A DNA stretch of 64,000 nucleotides, taken from the NCBI GenBank assembly GCA_029975475.1, contig JARKPB010000003.1:186001-250000 (forward strand). Direction: 5' to 3'. Under the pieces are notes generated by a model. That model was given only the letters and a program-made list of their open reading frames with translations. It did not search any database and was not told the DNA's origin. Shown piece by piece: positions 25,204 through 37,258 of the stretch (the stretch's first letter is position 1; every line of letters begins with the position of its first letter). Position numbers and translations under genes: made by a program. Source of the stretch: Anaerolineaceae bacterium. GTDB lineage: Bacteria; Chloroflexota; Anaerolineae; Anaerolineales; Anaerolineaceae.

Positions 25204-26922
25204 ATGCCTGTTCAGATTTTGGTGGCTTCACCTCATCCTGCCTTTGGAGAACTGATCCGGATCAGCCTGGAAGACAGCAGCAGTTACCGGGTGCGTCTGG
25301 TGCAAAACGCTGTGGACGCAGCCAATGCTGCGAGCCGCAGCGCGTTTGATCTGGCCATCCTGGACAGCGACCTGCGCGATCAACCGCTGGCCGGGCTGGC
25401 AAGAACCATCCTCGCCCAGCGGCCAGAGACGCGCCTGATTGTCATCCCACCCAATAACGATCCCAATCATCCTTCCCTGGCAGGGATTCCGGTTCAGGGC
25501 TTCCTAAAAAAACCATTCTATTTACCAGAATTGTTAGAAATGGTGGAGAAAATCATCAGCACCAGACCTGAAACCCCTCCTCCAGCGGCACCGCCCGCGG
25601 CTCATCCTCCCGCGAAACGCCCGTCGCCGACCCCGGCCGCTGCCGCGCAGGCCGCTCCCCAGCCGACAGCCCCGGCGGTGACCATGCAGCCCTGGCTGAG
25701 CGACGCTGCCCAGGCAGCCCAATACCTGACTCGCATGCTGCTGGACTCGAACGCTCATGCCGCGTTGATTCTTCAGGAAGGAAAGATTTGGGCTTACGCC
25801 GGTCATCTTGAGCAAAGCGGGGCTCAGGAAGTTGCCGCTGTGATCTCCCGCTACTGGAACAGTCAACAGCGCGGCGACCTGGCCCGGTTTATCCGCCTGG
25901 ATTCGAATTCAACCGATTATCTCCTTTATGCCACCCCGATGGGAGAAACGCTGGCACTGGCAATGGTCTTTGATATCGCCATGCCGCTCACCCGCATCCG
26001 CAATCAGGCCAACCAGCTGGCGCGCACGCTCATCTCAACCCCGCCGCCTCAAAATGCCGAACCCTCTGCCCCGGCTGTCCAGCCCAAACCGGCCAGTCCC
26101 AAAGAACCCGCCGTTCCCGCCGCGCCCCAAGCGCCTGAAAGCGGTGAAAACCTGACAGATGCCTGGGAAGAGTCATCCGAACCTGCAGAAGCCAGCTGGG
26201 AACCGGGTGATGAGGTTAAGCTTTCCAGTTTCCTGGAGAGCGTCCCGCCGCCAGACCCGGATACTACGAAGCAAACGCCCAAGCCTGAAACCGGGGGGCT
26301 GCCCGAGTTCGTCTTCCCGTGGGAAGAGACCATGTCCACACCGGTCAACCCCAGCGCTGCGCCGACCATCCCGCTGCGCGTGCGAGATTTGAATCCCTCT
26401 CAGCCGCCGCAGCCGTCTACCCCACCCCTTTCGATTGAAGCCACGCAGGTCAGCAAGCCGGTTCGATCAAAATCGCCATTCGGAGTACCGGAGAGTCTCA
26501 GCGATCTCGATCCGCTCCAACCCGGACTGGCGCGCCTGACCTACACGTGCGTCCTGGTTCCGCGCATACCCGGCCACGCCCTCAACGGTGAGCTGGCTGA
26601 GAAGTTGAATCAATGGGTGCCTCAGCTCTGCATTGCCTTTGGCTGGCGAATGAGCGATTGCTCCGTCAAATCCAATTACCTGATGTGGACAATCGATGTG
26701 ATTCCTTCGATCTCCCCTGGTTCGCTGGTGCGCACGCTGCGCCAGAAACTGTCTGAGCGCATGTTTGCCACCTTCCCGAAACTGCGCGGGCAAAATCCCT
26801 CCGGCGATTTTTGGGCGCCCGGCTACCTGATCATCAGCGGCAGCATCCCCCCAACCCCGCAACTCATTCAGGATTTCATCCGCCAGACTCGCCAGTGGCA
26901 AGGCGTTCCATCCACCACATAG
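25204..26922 (+). CDS. Receiver - roadblock/LC7 - inactivated IS200-type (Y1) transposase domain fusion
   Basis: Residues 1-120 form a response-regulator receiver (AILDSDLRDQPLAGL with the phospho-acceptor Asp region; LKKPFYLPELLEMVEKI with the conserved Lys). A Pro/Ala linker leads to a roadblock/LC7-like domain at about 160-280 (HAALILQEGKIWAYAG...). After a second disordered Pro/Glu linker, residues 442-562 match the whole IS200/IS605 TnpA fold. The HUH position reads NYLMWTID (Tyr492, Met494 in place of His-x-His), and the catalytic Tyr is Phe558 in DFIRQ. The transposase part is thus catalytically dead and probably reused for DNA binding or dimerisation. There are no IS ends around it. 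Function unknown. Confidence 0.8.
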   Translation: MPVQILVASPHPAFGELIRISLEDSSSYRVRLVQNAVDAANAASRSAFDLAILDSDLRDQPLAGLARTILAQRPETRLIVIPPNNDPNHPSLAGIPVQGFLKKPFYLPELLEMVEKIISTRPETPPPAAPPAAHPPAKRPSPTPAAAAQAAPQPTAPAVTMQPWLSDAAQAAQYLTRMLLDSNAHAALILQEGKIWAYAGHLEQSGAQEVAAVISRYWNSQQRGDLARFIRLDSNSTDYLLYATPMGETLALAMVFDIAMPLTRIRNQANQLARTLISTPPPQNAEPSAPAVQPKPASPKEPAVPAAPQAPESGENLTDAWEESSEPAEASWEPGDEVKLSSFLESVPPPDPDTTKQTPKPETGGLPEFVFPWEETMSTPVNPSAAPTIPLRVRDLNPSQPPQPSTPPLSIEATQVSKPVRSKSPFGVPESLSDLDPLQPGLARLTYTCVLVPRIPGHALNGELAEKLNQWVPQLCIAFGWRMSDCSVKSNYLMWTIDVIPSISPGSLVRTLRQKLSERMFATFPKLRGQNPSGDFWAPGYLIISGSIPPTPQLIQDFIRQTRQWQGVPSTT

Positions 26923-26941
26923 ACAATCCGGATCCAAGAAC

Positions 26942-29737
26942 ATGCCACCCATACTCTATTTAATTGACGGTCATGCCCTGGCATACCGCACTTACTTCGC
27001 ATTAACCGCCGGCGCGGGTTCTGACCGGCTGCAGACTTCAAAAGGGGAGCCAACCGCCGGAATTTACGGTTTTGCCAGCGTTTTGCTGCGCATTCTGGAA
27101 CAGGAAAAACCGGAATATCTGGCGGTCGCCTTTGACACGGGCCGCACCTTTCGCAACGACCTCTTCCCTGATTACAAAGCCACCCGCGCGAAGATGCCGG
27201 ATGACCTGCGGCCGCAGATTGAGCGCATCCGGCAAATGGTGGATGCCTTTAATCTCCCGCGCCTGGAACAGGAAGGGGTTGAAGCCGATGATATCCTCGG
27301 TACCATCGCCCGCCAGGCGGTCGCCAGCGGACTGGGAGTAAAAATTATCACTGGCGACCGCGATCTGCTCCAGCTGGTAGATGAGCGCGTGATCGTCAAC
27401 CTGGCCGGCAGCCGCCTATCTGAAGCCCGAGATTTTCGCGCGGCGGAAGTGAAAGAGACCCTCGGGGTGCGCCCCGATCAGGTCGTTGATTACAAAGCCC
27501 TGGTCGGCGACCACTCGGATAACATCCCGGGCGTGCCGGGTGTGGGAGAAAAAACCGCGCTAACCTTGCTGGAAACCTATGACCACCTGGACGCTGTTTA
27601 CGCCCATCTGGATGAACTCCCGCCGCGCGTCCGCGCCAAACTGGAAGCCGGGCGCGAACTGGCGTATCTCAGCAAAGACCTGGCGACCATCCGCACCGAT
27701 GTCCCGGTCGTGCTCGATCTGGAGCAGGCGCGCACCAGCAACCTGAAACCGCAGCAGGTTGAATCTTTCTTCCGCGAGATGGAATTTCGCACCCTGACCG
27801 AACGGCTGCGGAAGATGACCAGCCTTGCAGAAATGACCCATCAACCTTCCGCGCAGCTCAACCTTTTCGGCGAACAGCTTGAGCTGATTGGTAGGCCGGC
27901 CGAACCGGCTATTCAGGTTGTCACAGTGACCGATCAAAGCGAGCTGGATGCCCTGCGTCAGAAACTGGAAAGCGCAGACTGGATCGCGTTGGATACAGAA
28001 ACGACTTCCACCGACCCGATGCGCTGCATGCTGGTAGGCATTTCGCTGGCGGTTGAACCCGGCCAGGGATTCTATATCCCGATCGGACACCAGCGCTCCC
28101 CCCAGCTGGATTGGCCGCTTGTGCGCAGCGCGCTTCAGCCGGTGCTGGAAGATCCAGCCAAAAAGATCACCGGCCATCACCTGAAATTTGACTGTCTGGT
28201 GTTCTCCCGCTATGGATTAAATCCGGCCAACCTGGCCTTTGACACCATGCTGGCGGAATGGCTGCTGGATTCATCTTCCAGACGGCTCGGGTTGAAAGAA
28301 ATGGCGCTGGCTTATCTCAATGTGGAGATGACCCATATCGAAGAGCTGATTGGGAAAGGGAAAAACCAGATCAGCATGGCAGAAGTGCCGCTGGAAAAAG
28401 CCGCCCTGTACGCAGCCGCGGACGCGGAGGTGACGCTGCGCCTGACGGGCCTGCTGCGCGAAAAACTAACCGCCCAGGGCATGAACAAATTGATGGAAGA
28501 AATGGAAATGCCGCTGGTTCCAGTGCTCATCGCCATGGAACAGGCAGGGATCGGGCTGGATGTTGACTTTTTGCGCGCAATGAGCGCTGAACTCGCCGAA
28601 CGGCAGCGCGAGATCGAAGCGCAGATCCAGCAGGCGGTCGGGATGCCGTTTAACCTCAACTCTACCCAGCAGCTTTCCAATATCCTCTTCAAAAACTTAC
28701 AGCTGGTCCCGCCTGACCGCGGGAAAAAGACCGCCAGCGGCCATTATTCTACCTCGGCTGAAGTCCTTGAAGAACTGCGCGGAAAGCACCCGGTTGTGGA
28801 TCTCATTCTGGAATACCGCGAACTATCCAAGTTGAAATCCACCTACCTGGATGCCCTGCCCGCCCAGATCAACCCCGAAACCGGGCGGGTGCACACCTCT
28901 TATTCACAGACCGGCTCGGTCACCGGCCGCCTGGCGTCCTCCGACCCCAACCTGCAAAACATACCCATCCGCACGGAGCTGGGCCGGCAGGTGCGAAAAG
29001 CGTTTGTTGCCGCGCCGGGACAGGTGCTGCTCTCTGTGGACTATTCGCAGATCGAGCTGCGGATTGTCGCCCACATGGCGCAAGATCAGACCATGATCGC
29101 GGCTTTTCGCGCGGGGCAGGATATTCACGCCGCGACCGCCGCGGCAATTTTCCGCGTGCCGATTGAGCAGGTGAGCAAAGACCAGCGCCGCCAGGCAAAA
29201 GCCGTCAATTTTGGCCTGATTTACGGGATGAGCGCTTTTGGCCTCAGCCGGGGCACAGATCTGACCCTGGCAGAAGCGGAGAACTTTGTTAAAGCCTATT
29301 TTGAACAGTTTCCTGGTGTAAAATCATATCTTGACGGCATACGCCGTCAGGCGGCCCTTCAGGGGTATGTGGAAACCCTGTTCGGCCGAAAGCGGTTCTT
29401 TCCCAATCTGATCACCCCGATCAACCAGATGATGAAGAACCGCGAAGAACGGGAGGCAATTAATGCCCCCATCCAGGGAACGGCCGCTGACTTGCTAAAA
29501 CTGGCCATGATCCGCCTGCCGGGCACATTAAAAGCCCAGGGATTAAACGCCCGAATCCTGCTTCAGGTGCATGATGAACTGGTGCTGGAATGCCCGCAAT
29601 CGGAATTAATGGCTGCCGCGCGCAGCGTGCGCGAAACCATGGAAAATGTTTACCCGCTGTCTGTGCCGCTCAGCACGGAAGCGCGCTGGGGTAAGAACTG
29701 GGGCGAAATGACCGCCCTGGAGAACGAATCCATCTAA
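26942..29737 (+). CDS. polA: DNA polymerase I
   Basis: A 931-residue family A polymerase. Residues 1-300 are the 5'-3' exonuclease (YLIDGHALAYR, GVEADDILGT, GDHSDNIPGVPGVGEKTA). A DnaQ-like 3'-5' exonuclease at about 315-510 keeps the Exo I DTETT, Exo II HHLKFD and Exo III YAAADAEV residues, so proofreading looks intact, unlike many Gram-positive and thermophile PolA proteins. The polymerase domain has motif A LLSVDYSQIELR, motif B RRQAKAVNFGLIYG and motif C LLQVHDELVLE. It fills gaps in repair and removes RNA primers. The next gene starts 6 bases after its stop. Confidence 0.97.
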   Translation: MPPILYLIDGHALAYRTYFALTAGAGSDRLQTSKGEPTAGIYGFASVLLRILEQEKPEYLAVAFDTGRTFRNDLFPDYKATRAKMPDDLRPQIERIRQMVDAFNLPRLEQEGVEADDILGTIARQAVASGLGVKIITGDRDLLQLVDERVIVNLAGSRLSEARDFRAAEVKETLGVRPDQVVDYKALVGDHSDNIPGVPGVGEKTALTLLETYDHLDAVYAHLDELPPRVRAKLEAGRELAYLSKDLATIRTDVPVVLDLEQARTSNLKPQQVESFFREMEFRTLTERLRKMTSLAEMTHQPSAQLNLFGEQLELIGRPAEPAIQVVTVTDQSELDALRQKLESADWIALDTETTSTDPMRCMLVGISLAVEPGQGFYIPIGHQRSPQLDWPLVRSALQPVLEDPAKKITGHHLKFDCLVFSRYGLNPANLAFDTMLAEWLLDSSSRRLGLKEMALAYLNVEMTHIEELIGKGKNQISMAEVPLEKAALYAAADAEVTLRLTGLLREKLTAQGMNKLMEEMEMPLVPVLIAMEQAGIGLDVDFLRAMSAELAERQREIEAQIQQAVGMPFNLNSTQQLSNILFKNLQLVPPDRGKKTASGHYSTSAEVLEELRGKHPVVDLILEYRELSKLKSTYLDALPAQINPETGRVHTSYSQTGSVTGRLASSDPNLQNIPIRTELGRQVRKAFVAAPGQVLLSVDYSQIELRIVAHMAQDQTMIAAFRAGQDIHAATAAAIFRVPIEQVSKDQRRQAKAVNFGLIYGMSAFGLSRGTDLTLAEAENFVKAYFEQFPGVKSYLDGIRRQAALQGYVETLFGRKRFFPNLITPINQMMKNREEREAINAPIQGTAADLLKLAMIRLPGTLKAQGLNARILLQVHDELVLECPQSELMAAARSVRETMENVYPLSVPLSTEARWGKNWGEMTALENESI

Positions 29738-29743
29738 AATCTG

Positions 29744-32074
29744 GTGCCGTCTATGCCGGGAAACAAGCAAGCCTATCAAAAATTCATGGATCAGGGAAAC
29801 TCAGCAGCCTGGGAAAAAAACTGGGACCAGGCGGCTCGCTACTACCACCTGGCGCTGGAAGAAATGCCCGATCAGCCCGCGGCCCTTTCCAGTTTGGGGT
29901 TGGCTTATTACGAAATGAAGGATTTTGATAAGGCGCTTGAGTATTACCGCCAGGCGGTCAAAGCCGCGCCGGATGACCCGGCCCCGTATGATAAAATCGG
30001 TCGAATTCTGGAACAAAATGGGCGGATAGCCGAAGCGGTTAAATCCTGGCTGGCGGCTGCCGATCTTTATCTGAAAAATCGAGACCTGGAGCGGGCGATT
30101 GAGCACTGGAACCGCGCCACCGCGCTGGACCCGGAAAACCTGACCGCTTATACCAAGCTGGCGATGATCTACGAAAAAATCGGCAATAAGGCGGAAGCCG
30201 TGCGGGCTTTTTTAGCCTGCGCCAGTCTGATGCAGCGCAGCGGGGATACCACCAAAGCCTTGCAGGTGACCGAATATGCCCGTCAGATGGCGCCGCAGAG
30301 CGCTGAAGTGCTCAACGCGCTCAATCGGATTAAATCCAACCAGCTGCTGCCCAAACCCACCGGACGGCCCGCGACCGGTGCATTAAAACCGGTCGAACGG
30401 AAAAAAGAACTTTCCGCACCTGCAGAAGAGGCCGGGCAGCCGCCGGTGGTTGAAGCGCGTCAGAAAGCCCTGTCTGAGCTGGCCAGCATGCTCTTTGACG
30501 CGCCGGATGAATCACCGGCCAACAGCGGCCAGGTATCCCGGCGGGGAATCACGACCTTGAGCCGCGGAACCGGCGGGCTCTCGCTGGAAAACGCGGAACG
30601 AACCCGCATCCTGGCTCACCTTGGCCAGGCGATTGAAGCACAAACCAACGAACACCCGGCTCAGGCGATTGAAGAATTAGAGCGGGCGATCGAGCTGGGT
30701 TTGAACCGGTCAGCAGCGTTCTTTGACCTTGGCTATCTTTACGCCAATCGAAATCCTCAGAAAGCGATCAAGTATCTTAAGCAGGCGGTGAAGCACCCCG
30801 ATTACGCCCTGGGCTCATACCTGCTGATCGGCGAACTGCAGGAGGACGCTGAAAATCTGAGCGAGGCTGCCCAGGCTTATATCCAGGCGCTCAGTCTGGC
30901 AGACGCGCAAAGCGTGCCTGAGAAACACAGTGAAACGCTGCGCCAGTTATATGAACCGGTGCTGGAAGCCCAGGCCCGCGAAAACGACCCGGTGACGTTG
31001 AAGAAAATCTGCGAGACGATTGCCGCCCAGCTGCACCGCGCAGACTGGCGCAAACACCTGAAGCATGCCCGCGCCCAGCTCAGCCCGGGCGACGATCAGG
31101 GCACCCCGATTCCGCTGATCGAGATGCTGCTGGAGTCGCGCAGCGGGCAGGTGGTTGAAGCCCTGGCTCAAGTGCAGATGCTGACCCAGGCGGGGAAATA
31201 CCGTTCGGCGATGGAAGAGGCTTATTACGCCCTGCAGTACGCGCCGACGTTCATGCCCTTACACATCATGATGGGCGATCTGCTGGTTAAAGAGAACCAC
31301 CTACAGGAAGCGGTCGAGAAGTACTTGCTGGTCAGTAATTTATACACCCTGCGGGGAGAAAGCAGCCAGGCGATCGCGCTGCTCAGCCGGGTTGTGGATC
31401 TGGTTCCGATGGATCTGGCAATCCGCGGCAAACTGATTGAATTGCTGCTGGCGCAGGGAAAGGTCGAAGAAACCATCCGCCAGTACATCAGCCTGGCAGA
31501 GATCTACTATCAACTCGCTGAACTGGATATGGCGCGCCAGACCTATACCAATGCCCTCAAACTGGCGCAAGAATCGACCCGCCACCGCGCGCTTGCCGCT
31601 GAAATCCTCATGCACATCGCCGATATCGATATGCAGCGCCTGGACATCCGCCAGGCCCTGCGCACCTACGAACAACTGCGCACCTTACAACCGGATGACC
31701 CTGAGCCTCGTTCCATGCTGGTGGATCTCAATTTCCGCATGGGCCTGGACGCGGCGGCTTTACTGGAACTGGATACCTACGTGGCTATGCTCAACAATGC
31801 CGGCAAGCGGGACCAGGCAGTAAAATTTATTGAAAATCTAATCGAATTGCGCCCGGATCGTTGGGAATTGAAAAAACGATTGGCTGATGGGCTGGCTCAC
31901 ACCGGCAAGGTGAAAGAGGCGGTCGAAACCCTGGATACGCTGGCCGATTTGCTTTTATCCCGCGGCGATCAGGAGGGTGCGCTGGCGATGGTCGAAGCCA
32001 TCATCGCCCTCAATCCGCCCAACGTTGGCGATTATCAAAAGGTGCTCGTCCAGATCCGCAGCGGAAAAGTCTAG
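29744..32074 (+). CDS. Large TPR-repeat protein
   Basis: A 776-residue cytoplasmic protein built largely of tetratricopeptide repeats; clear examples are PAALSSLGLAYYEMKDFDKALEYYRQAVKAAPDD near residue 45 and ENLTAYTKLAMIYEKIGNKAEAVRAF near 130, with further degenerate repeats to the C terminus. A low-complexity linker lies at about 200-280. No enzymatic domain is seen, so it is likely a scaffold. GTG at 29744 is used here; an ATG nine bases later is possible and neither has a strong ribosome binding site. Probably cotranscribed with polA. Confidence 0.85.
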   Translation: MPSMPGNKQAYQKFMDQGNSAAWEKNWDQAARYYHLALEEMPDQPAALSSLGLAYYEMKDFDKALEYYRQAVKAAPDDPAPYDKIGRILEQNGRIAEAVKSWLAAADLYLKNRDLERAIEHWNRATALDPENLTAYTKLAMIYEKIGNKAEAVRAFLACASLMQRSGDTTKALQVTEYARQMAPQSAEVLNALNRIKSNQLLPKPTGRPATGALKPVERKKELSAPAEEAGQPPVVEARQKALSELASMLFDAPDESPANSGQVSRRGITTLSRGTGGLSLENAERTRILAHLGQAIEAQTNEHPAQAIEELERAIELGLNRSAAFFDLGYLYANRNPQKAIKYLKQAVKHPDYALGSYLLIGELQEDAENLSEAAQAYIQALSLADAQSVPEKHSETLRQLYEPVLEAQARENDPVTLKKICETIAAQLHRADWRKHLKHARAQLSPGDDQGTPIPLIEMLLESRSGQVVEALAQVQMLTQAGKYRSAMEEAYYALQYAPTFMPLHIMMGDLLVKENHLQEAVEKYLLVSNLYTLRGESSQAIALLSRVVDLVPMDLAIRGKLIELLLAQGKVEETIRQYISLAEIYYQLAELDMARQTYTNALKLAQESTRHRALAAEILMHIADIDMQRLDIRQALRTYEQLRTLQPDDPEPRSMLVDLNFRMGLDAAALLELDTYVAMLNNAGKRDQAVKFIENLIELRPDRWELKKRLADGLAHTGKVKEAVETLDTLADLLLSRGDQEGALAMVEAIIALNPPNVGDYQKVLVQIRSGKV

Positions 32075-36840: not shown

Positions 36841-36953
36841 AAAAAACCGGCGCAAATCACGGCCGGTTTCGCTACTGGCTCCCCAGGGTCCCCGCCGGGT
36901 TTTCAACCGGACAAGCGACCAAATAAAGGACACTGGATCATCGCTTCCAATCA
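36841..36953 (-). ncRNA. c-di-GMP-II riboswitch-like element 1 with terminator (nearest the gene)
   Basis: Read on the minus strand: UGGAAGCGAUGAUCC, then UUUAUUUGGUCGCUUG, an inner hairpin region with GGGGAGCC, then AGUAGCGAAACCGGCC, then a terminator stem ACCGGC/GCCGGT with a T-run. UCGCU pairs with AGCGA. The blocks UUGG-stem-CUUG and AGUAG-stem-AACCGRCC match those I recall for the c-di-GMP-II class (for example UUGGGCACUUG ... UAGUAGUGCAACCGACC). The terminator 5' arm uses the same AACCGG bases as the aptamer end, which fits an ON switch. It ends just before the response regulator ribosome binding site. Confidence 0.65.
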
Positions 36954-36980
36954 AGTGAACTGTTCAGGTGCAATTAACCA

Positions 36981-37129: not shown

Positions 37130-37240
37130 CGAACCGGCTCGACAATTCTGGCCGGTTTCGCTACTGGCTCCCCAGACTCCCGCCGGTTTCATCACCGGAC
37201 AAGCGACCAATTTAAGAAATCTGGTTCAACGCCGCCAAAT
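37130..37240 (-). ncRNA. c-di-GMP-II riboswitch-like element 3 (promoter-proximal)
   Basis: More diverged than elements 1 and 2 but with the same core: CUUAAAUUGGUCGCUUGUCCGG, GGGGAGCCAGUAGCGAAACCGGCC. The terminator stem GAACCGGC.../GAGCCGGTTC is followed by a weaker GTTCG tail, so termination may be less efficient. The first transcribed bases from the consensus promoter lie about 12 bases upstream of this element. Confidence 0.6.
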
Positions 37241-37258
37241 GGTATGTAATGTAAAATC

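Follow-up and report, generated by a model that had tools for sequence, protein, structure and literature searches.

The window, a stretch of 64,000 nucleotides from an Anaerolineaceae bacterium (Chloroflexota), carries directly ahead of polA (the gene for DNA polymerase I, Pol I) a gene for a protein whose C-terminus is a genuine IS200/IS605 Y1 (HUH) transposase fold with an emptied active site. At the level of compared sequences and predicted structures, the fold, the family-wide catalytic loss, a single supported split from the transposases, purifying selection, and the polA linkage are established. As to the biochemical role, we infer, at about even confidence, that the domain is a domesticated, non-catalytic module that would bind single-stranded DNA (ssDNA) or forks on a dimeric scaffold and would work with Pol I. 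The polA linkage, which went unnoticed in an earlier sequence-only reading of this DNA, is the main clue and makes the finding worth testing, as a dead transposase domain kept beside polA hints at service in DNA replication or repair. The features of the locus are collected in Table 1.

Table 1. Features of the dead-Y1 gene and its two downstream neighbours, in positions of the window.
Feature	Position	Strand	Basis or remark
Whole gene, 572 aa (pseudo-receiver, Roadblock, Pro-rich linker, pseudo-Y1)	25204..26922	+	Full-length homologues exist
Receiver-like domain, residues 5-115	25216..25548	+	Pfam Response_reg, 30.7 bits
Roadblock/LC7 domain, residues 158-282	25675..26049	+	AF2 model and Foldseek
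Proline-rich linker, variable length	26050..26526	+	Sequence; length variation among homologues
Catalytically dead Y1/IS200 transposase fold, residues 442-562	26527..26889	+	Pfam, family profile, AF2, Foldseek, VIA-align
Former HUH motif, residues 492-494, now Tyr-Leu-Met	26677..26685	+	Family column comparison
Former nucleophile Tyr, now Phe558	26875..26877	+	Family column comparison
Third metal ligand place (Gln in TnpA), now Thr562	26887..26889	+	Column counts; ligand role from PMC6006769 (partial text)
polA, DNA polymerase I with 5'-3' and 3'-5' exonuclease domains	26942..29737	+	Pfam
TPR protein, 776 aa, third gene of the conserved set	29744..32074	+	Pfam

Only 19 nt separate the dead-Y1 gene from polA and 6 nt separate polA from the TPR gene. 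Elsewhere in the window, two tandem c-di-GMP-II-GAG riboswitch aptamers are found on the minus strand (36853-36957 and 37142-37245), both above the gathering score.

The Y1 fold, which the sequence-only reading had assigned to residues 442-562, was confirmed. In Pfam, Y1_Tnp covers residues 444-557 with E 4.5e-9 and 36.9 bits, above its cut-off of 23, and the NCBIfam transpos_IS200 equivalog gives 42.3 bits, which is under its cut-off of 55. When a 67-row family profile was compared with PDB sequences, the 8 matches at E ≤ 1 were all named transposases (best 2ec2, E 2.2e-21), and the alignments placed the family's Tyr-Leu-Gln on the HUH histidines and its Phe column on the Tyr of the solved enzymes. 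For the AF2 model of the 143-aa Y1 region (pLDDT 92.1, pTM 0.84), Foldseek gave 30 matches at E ≤ 0.001, 29 of them TnpA-type structures and the remaining one elongation factor 2. In VIA-align, the model is closest to 2ec2_E (Z 18.4, rmsd 2.0, 109 aligned), and the first 15 rows are all of the TnpA type with Z from 15.9 to 18.4, followed by the RAYT 4er8 at Z 8.4; the fold is thus nearer to TnpA than to this RAYT. A structure prediction compared with TnpA had been suggested as a check, with a fold unlike Y1 as the outcome that would speak against the assignment, and the predicted fold is Y1. Among the solved structures, the "putative transposase" 2fyx_A (Deinococcus DR_0177) has Tyr-Val-His at the HUH site in the profile alignment and matches the Y1 model including the C-terminal helix (Z 16.0, 128 aligned).

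For the comparison of catalytic residues, 232 ORF matches were reduced to 171 distinct Y1 rows, consisting of 148 family rows and 23 stand-alone TnpAs of the same order (the latter from 30 loci, L143-L172, of which the other 7 yielded no distinct row when searched with the family profile at E ≤ 1e-4). The window copy has Tyr492-Leu-Met494 at the HUH site, Phe558 at the nucleophile, and Thr562 at the third metal ligand (Y+4), a place held in IS608 TnpA by Q131 according to the available part of PMC6006769; the first three replacements are those that the sequence-only reading had named. A complete set of HUH and Tyr is found in none of the 140 family rows (out of 148) that are at least 300 aa long. 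The stand-alone TnpAs of the order served as control and have the complete set in 17 of 23 rows, with one of the six incomplete rows running into a contig end and another interrupted by an in-frame stop. Both histidines of HxH are retained in one of the 148 family rows, and there Phe stands at the Tyr place (His-Leu-His; L131:924-2480, which is L060, genome G392). The metal-ligand Gln is present in 11 of 148. The earlier claim that all catalytic residues are lost therefore holds for the window copy and does not hold family-wide, since the Tyr place taken alone is still Tyr in 72 of the 148 rows (Phe in 68, Leu in 5, His in 2, and one gap). At least 10 changes between Tyr and Phe at position 558 were counted on a tree of 80 rows, so that the aromatic ring appears to be kept while the hydroxyl is dispensable.

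The vacated positions have acquired family-conserved residues of their own, namely Tyr492 (80%), Gln494 (73%), and Thr562 (70%), and next to them Arg563 (93%), Gln566 (87%), and Gly567 (86%), at which TnpA differs (all percentages from unweighted rows). Judged by these columns, the emptied active site is a case of remodelling, not decay. Close homologues that keep HUH and Tyr and have mobile-element ends had been named as an observation that would speak against exaptation: none of the 140 long homologues keeps HUH and Tyr, and a search around the window's Y1 domain (26350-27050) for IS or REP ends or inverted repeats returned only a 12-nt palindrome at 26524-26541.

On a 108-row tree, the 21 stand-alone TnpAs form one side of a branch with 100/100 support. 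As the tree is midpoint-rooted, one separation of the family from TnpA is supported and its direction is not. Across 84 close pairs, dN/dS has a median of 0.078 and a maximum of 0.207 (with many dS values near saturation), by which measure the dead-Y1 family is under purifying selection. The view of the sequence-only reading, that a Y1 domain without catalysis was exapted into a receiver-Roadblock protein, is supported by the fold, the 0 of 140 complete triads, the selection, and the tree split, and these comparisons bring a domestication of the dead domain, as opposed to a recent wreck, close to shown. Between the fused and the unfused receiver-Roadblock forms, 2 changes are counted on a tree that is unrooted and has many long branches.

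The same architecture had been proposed for a search in Chloroflexota. Of 91 genomes in the order, 56 have the dead family in a long or a short form, as judged by score and frame length (the catalytic residues come from the 148-row family set), and together with 4 genomes that have only stand-alone TnpAs they make up the 60 that match the profile. Since 35 of the 91 genomes are without the family, it is not required by Pol I. At the species level, scanning with a 12-row alignment yielded 148 relatives, of which 80 were retained, whereas the window protein as sole query found none. The names on these records are Anaerolineales, Anaerolineaceae, Anaerolinea, Longilinea, Brevefilum, and unspecified "Chloroflexi", with single bins labelled Chloroflexus and Herpetosiphon; named relatives include Longilinea arvoryzae KOME-1 and Anaerolinea thermolimosa IMO-1. 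A few genomes of the class that lie outside the order also have dead relatives in long frames (G034, G232, G270, G252, G019, G279, and G163). A search for fused homologues elsewhere in the phylum (301 genomes, E ≤ 1e-10, at most 13 candidates scored per genome), with a cut-off that misses known class relatives such as G019, gave out-of-order rows below 300 aa except for three of 518-580 aa, all interrupted by an in-frame stop. Short frames of 182-194 aa that lack the receiver-Roadblock part and score high to the dead family were seen at L034:4615-5199 (G027), G479:C16:30846-31250, and G486:C105:3465-3878. The one in G027 has Tyr-Leu-Gln and Phe and lies near a gene for an Mrr-type restriction endonuclease.

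The link to Pol I is a genomic association. Neighbours were analysed for 137 loci, 3 of 140 anchors having been missed by the gene caller and left out. Directly after the dead-Y1 gene, and on its strand, polA follows in 117 of the 135 loci with a gene at that place, against no more than 25 of 128 loci for any gene family at -1 and 20 of 105 at +3, and polA lies at most three genes away in 126 of 137; in the 3 left-out anchors it follows directly, which brings the count to 129 of 140. Of the 137 loci, 89 have the TPR protein gene, and 28 have a COX15/CtaA gene (cytochrome oxidase assembly) downstream at +3 to +6. Linked loci from whole genomes come from 13 families, one of which (f22) is outside the order. 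No polA was found anywhere in the locus DNA examined for 11 of the 137 loci, 2 of which end within 330 nt of a contig end. In genome G192 the dead-Y1 gene and polA are on different contigs, and polA is there still beside its TPR neighbour; three class-level relatives (L032, L033, and L036) are without the link.

One reading of this association is that it is frozen ancestral gene order with no functional meaning. Such a reading can draw on the 11 loci with a broken link and on 14 genomes of the same family that have polA and lack the dead-Y1 gene; nothing like it precedes polA there, and the TPR gene is beside polA in 4 of the 14. It is made improbable by the opposite, upstream side of the same loci, which is scrambled (the commonest gene family at -1 is shared by no more than 25 of 128 loci), and by the recurrence of the link in four f22 genomes outside the order (L027, L030, L037, and L038) as well as for some unfused receiver-Roadblock genes. 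The latter precede polA outside the order in 3 of 28 class loci, plus one fragment (the 28 loci come from the best 30 of 59 matching genomes), and also in further genomes that were chosen for carrying such a gene (in the 30-genome polA-context set, 10 were chosen for a receiver-Roadblock match and 5 more for the Y1 form). A receiver-Roadblock protein can thus accompany polA without a Y1 domain.

The N-terminal part of the protein had been read as a receiver that would control the C-terminal domain. The domain itself stands, with a Pfam Response_reg match barely above its cut-off (30.7 against 30.2 bits) and the phospho-accepting Asp54 kept in 103 of 105 family members, along with Lys103 in 90 of 106. 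Across the family, on the other hand, the acidic pair is gone: 11 of 105 members have an acidic residue at position 9, and 70 of 105 have Pro at position 10. The window copy keeps Asp54 and Lys103, has Ser9-Pro10 in place of the acidic pair, and has Pro82, so it lacks the full set of a phosphorylated response regulator (acidic pair, Asp, Ser/Thr, and Lys). By the definition given in the available part of PMC12632262, loss of the acidic pair makes it a pseudo-receiver, and from its residues phosphorylation-based control appears doubtful. The proposed Roadblock domain was confirmed by its predicted fold (pLDDT 91.0), for which Foldseek returned MglB as best match (6izw_B, E 8.8e-7) and also MP1/p14 and other Roadblock-type chains. 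Pfam gives no Roadblock match in the window protein, and Robl_LC7 matches 1 of 51 family members. At E ≤ 0.001, Robl_LC7 matches the genome of the window just once, at another locus (L313, C18:274404-274676), which adjoins a protein with a below-cut-off V4R match.

In the role that we prefer, a descendant of the IS200/IS605 TnpA fold, without catalysis, would have been fixed C-terminal to a pseudo-receiver-Roadblock scaffold, its gene being kept before polA. The Roadblock part would dimerize the protein and so pair two Y1 folds, and the basic Y1 fold may still hold ssDNA or fork and hairpin structures without cutting them. The module might then load, position, or restrain Pol I at lagging-strand gaps or repair patches, a use that would draw on TnpA's prior habit of working with the lagging-strand template, fork structures, and the sliding clamp. 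The available part of PMC5371812 names the lagging-strand template as the target of IS200/IS605 transposases and reports for IS608 TnpA an affinity for fork-like structures and, from a two-hybrid assay, binding to the beta clamp. The polA linkage, this ancestry, and the basic character of the domain favour the preferred role. In its most specific form, the proposal is that a dead HUH transposase has become a stable Pol I accessory factor that recognizes lagging-strand ssDNA or forks and, without cutting, delivers or regulates Pol I through the Roadblock scaffold; this form we put forward tentatively, as somewhat more apt to fail than to hold. A beta-clamp motif was also considered and rejected, as QL[SD]LF occurs in 0 of 110 full-length proteins and relaxed forms are near the shuffle level (1 against 2.1; 14 against 11.2). 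This lack of a clamp motif counts against the preferred role, as do a net charge below that of TnpA, the loss of basic columns, the loci and class relatives without the polA link, and the 35 genomes of the order that lack the family. An anti-phage reading was likewise rejected, given no PADLOC match for the protein and a match of the TPR neighbour only to the generic TPR model. The viral fold library gave no match at E ≤ 0.001.

The main rival to a nucleic-acid-binding role is a Y1 fold that now serves protein contacts, whether with Pol I, with the TPR protein, or within its own dimer, and has lost nucleic acid binding. The family's median net charge (+3, against +5.5 for stand-alone TnpA), the loss of the basic TnpA columns 446, 456, 457, 530, 539, and 557, the new family-conserved motifs such as SGDFWAPGYL and TRxRQG, and the conserved TPR neighbour all point in this direction. 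We nevertheless regard it as unlikely, because the domain is still basic (median pI 9.05 in the family, 9.7 in the window), the TnpA basic columns 454 (90%) and 513 (87%) are kept, and new basic columns have appeared at 482, 489, 510, 519, 563, and 565. The frozen gene order discussed above ranks after this rival. It would also be conceivable that the protein is an autoregulator that controls polA expression by binding a hairpin, of RNA or DNA, in its own operon, as its gene is the first of three closely packed genes and solved Y1 transposases are bound to hairpins according to their structure titles. This we consider distinctly improbable: the span 26350-27050 (the operon's 5' leader lies outside it) holds no inverted repeat beyond the palindrome already mentioned, and the promoter/terminator scan was uninformative, with fewer sites (1 and 9) than in shuffled sequence (2.9 and 11.5). 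An IS200 element that is still mobile, or was freshly broken, within a signalling gene would explain why the domain scores with transposase models, and it deserves practically no credence in view of the 0 of 140 triads, the purifying selection, the one supported split from the transposases, and the absence of a second Y1_Tnp match in the genome.

A family without catalytic motifs that is nonetheless selected beside polA would demonstrate that a transposase's ssDNA-recognition half can persist alone. If the preferred role is true, these Chloroflexota would have a replication or repair accessory factor for which our literature searches found no counterpart; likewise, no earlier description of the dead-Y1 family was found in the PMC literature, whose coverage leaves out most subscription journals. 

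Several known systems share parts of this protein. With MglB and other Roadblock/LC7 proteins it has the fold of the middle domain in common. MglB acts on the small GTPase MglA, as stated in a partly available source, whereas Pfam finds no GTPase among the three genes here, nor is a GTPase family present among 9 annotated representatives of neighbour clusters. RAYTs (TnpA-REP) have the Y1 fold and have been proposed as a domestication of a mobile element; in the available part of PMC6006769 they are described with HuH and Y motifs (Y---NP) and with REP sequences as partners, and the window protein has neither motif. The same part of that study describes an analysis of 722 of 924 TnpA-Y1 sequences that encode both motifs, with unexpectedly long proteins set aside, a selection by which a family of the dead-Y1 type would be excluded. 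The fold match of the window domain to RAYT 4er8 is also the weaker one (Z 8.4). The IS200/IS605 TnpAs (IS608, ISDra2; Pfam Y1_Tnp) have the same fold (Z up to 18.4) and belong to the same sequence family. Unlike them, the dead family lacks the HUH motif and the metal ligand, treats Tyr as optional, is fused to a pseudo-receiver and a Roadblock domain, is linked to polA, and, judged by the span 26350-27050 and by the Y1_Tnp matches of the window's genome, bears no sign of mobility. From the TnpB side of the same elements, TldR proteins have descended with loss of nuclease activity. They are RNA-guided regulators and, as far as the available part of PMC13418256 describes them, share with the dead-Y1 family the principle of an element protein kept as a host regulator, while being a different protein, guided by RNA, and put to another use.
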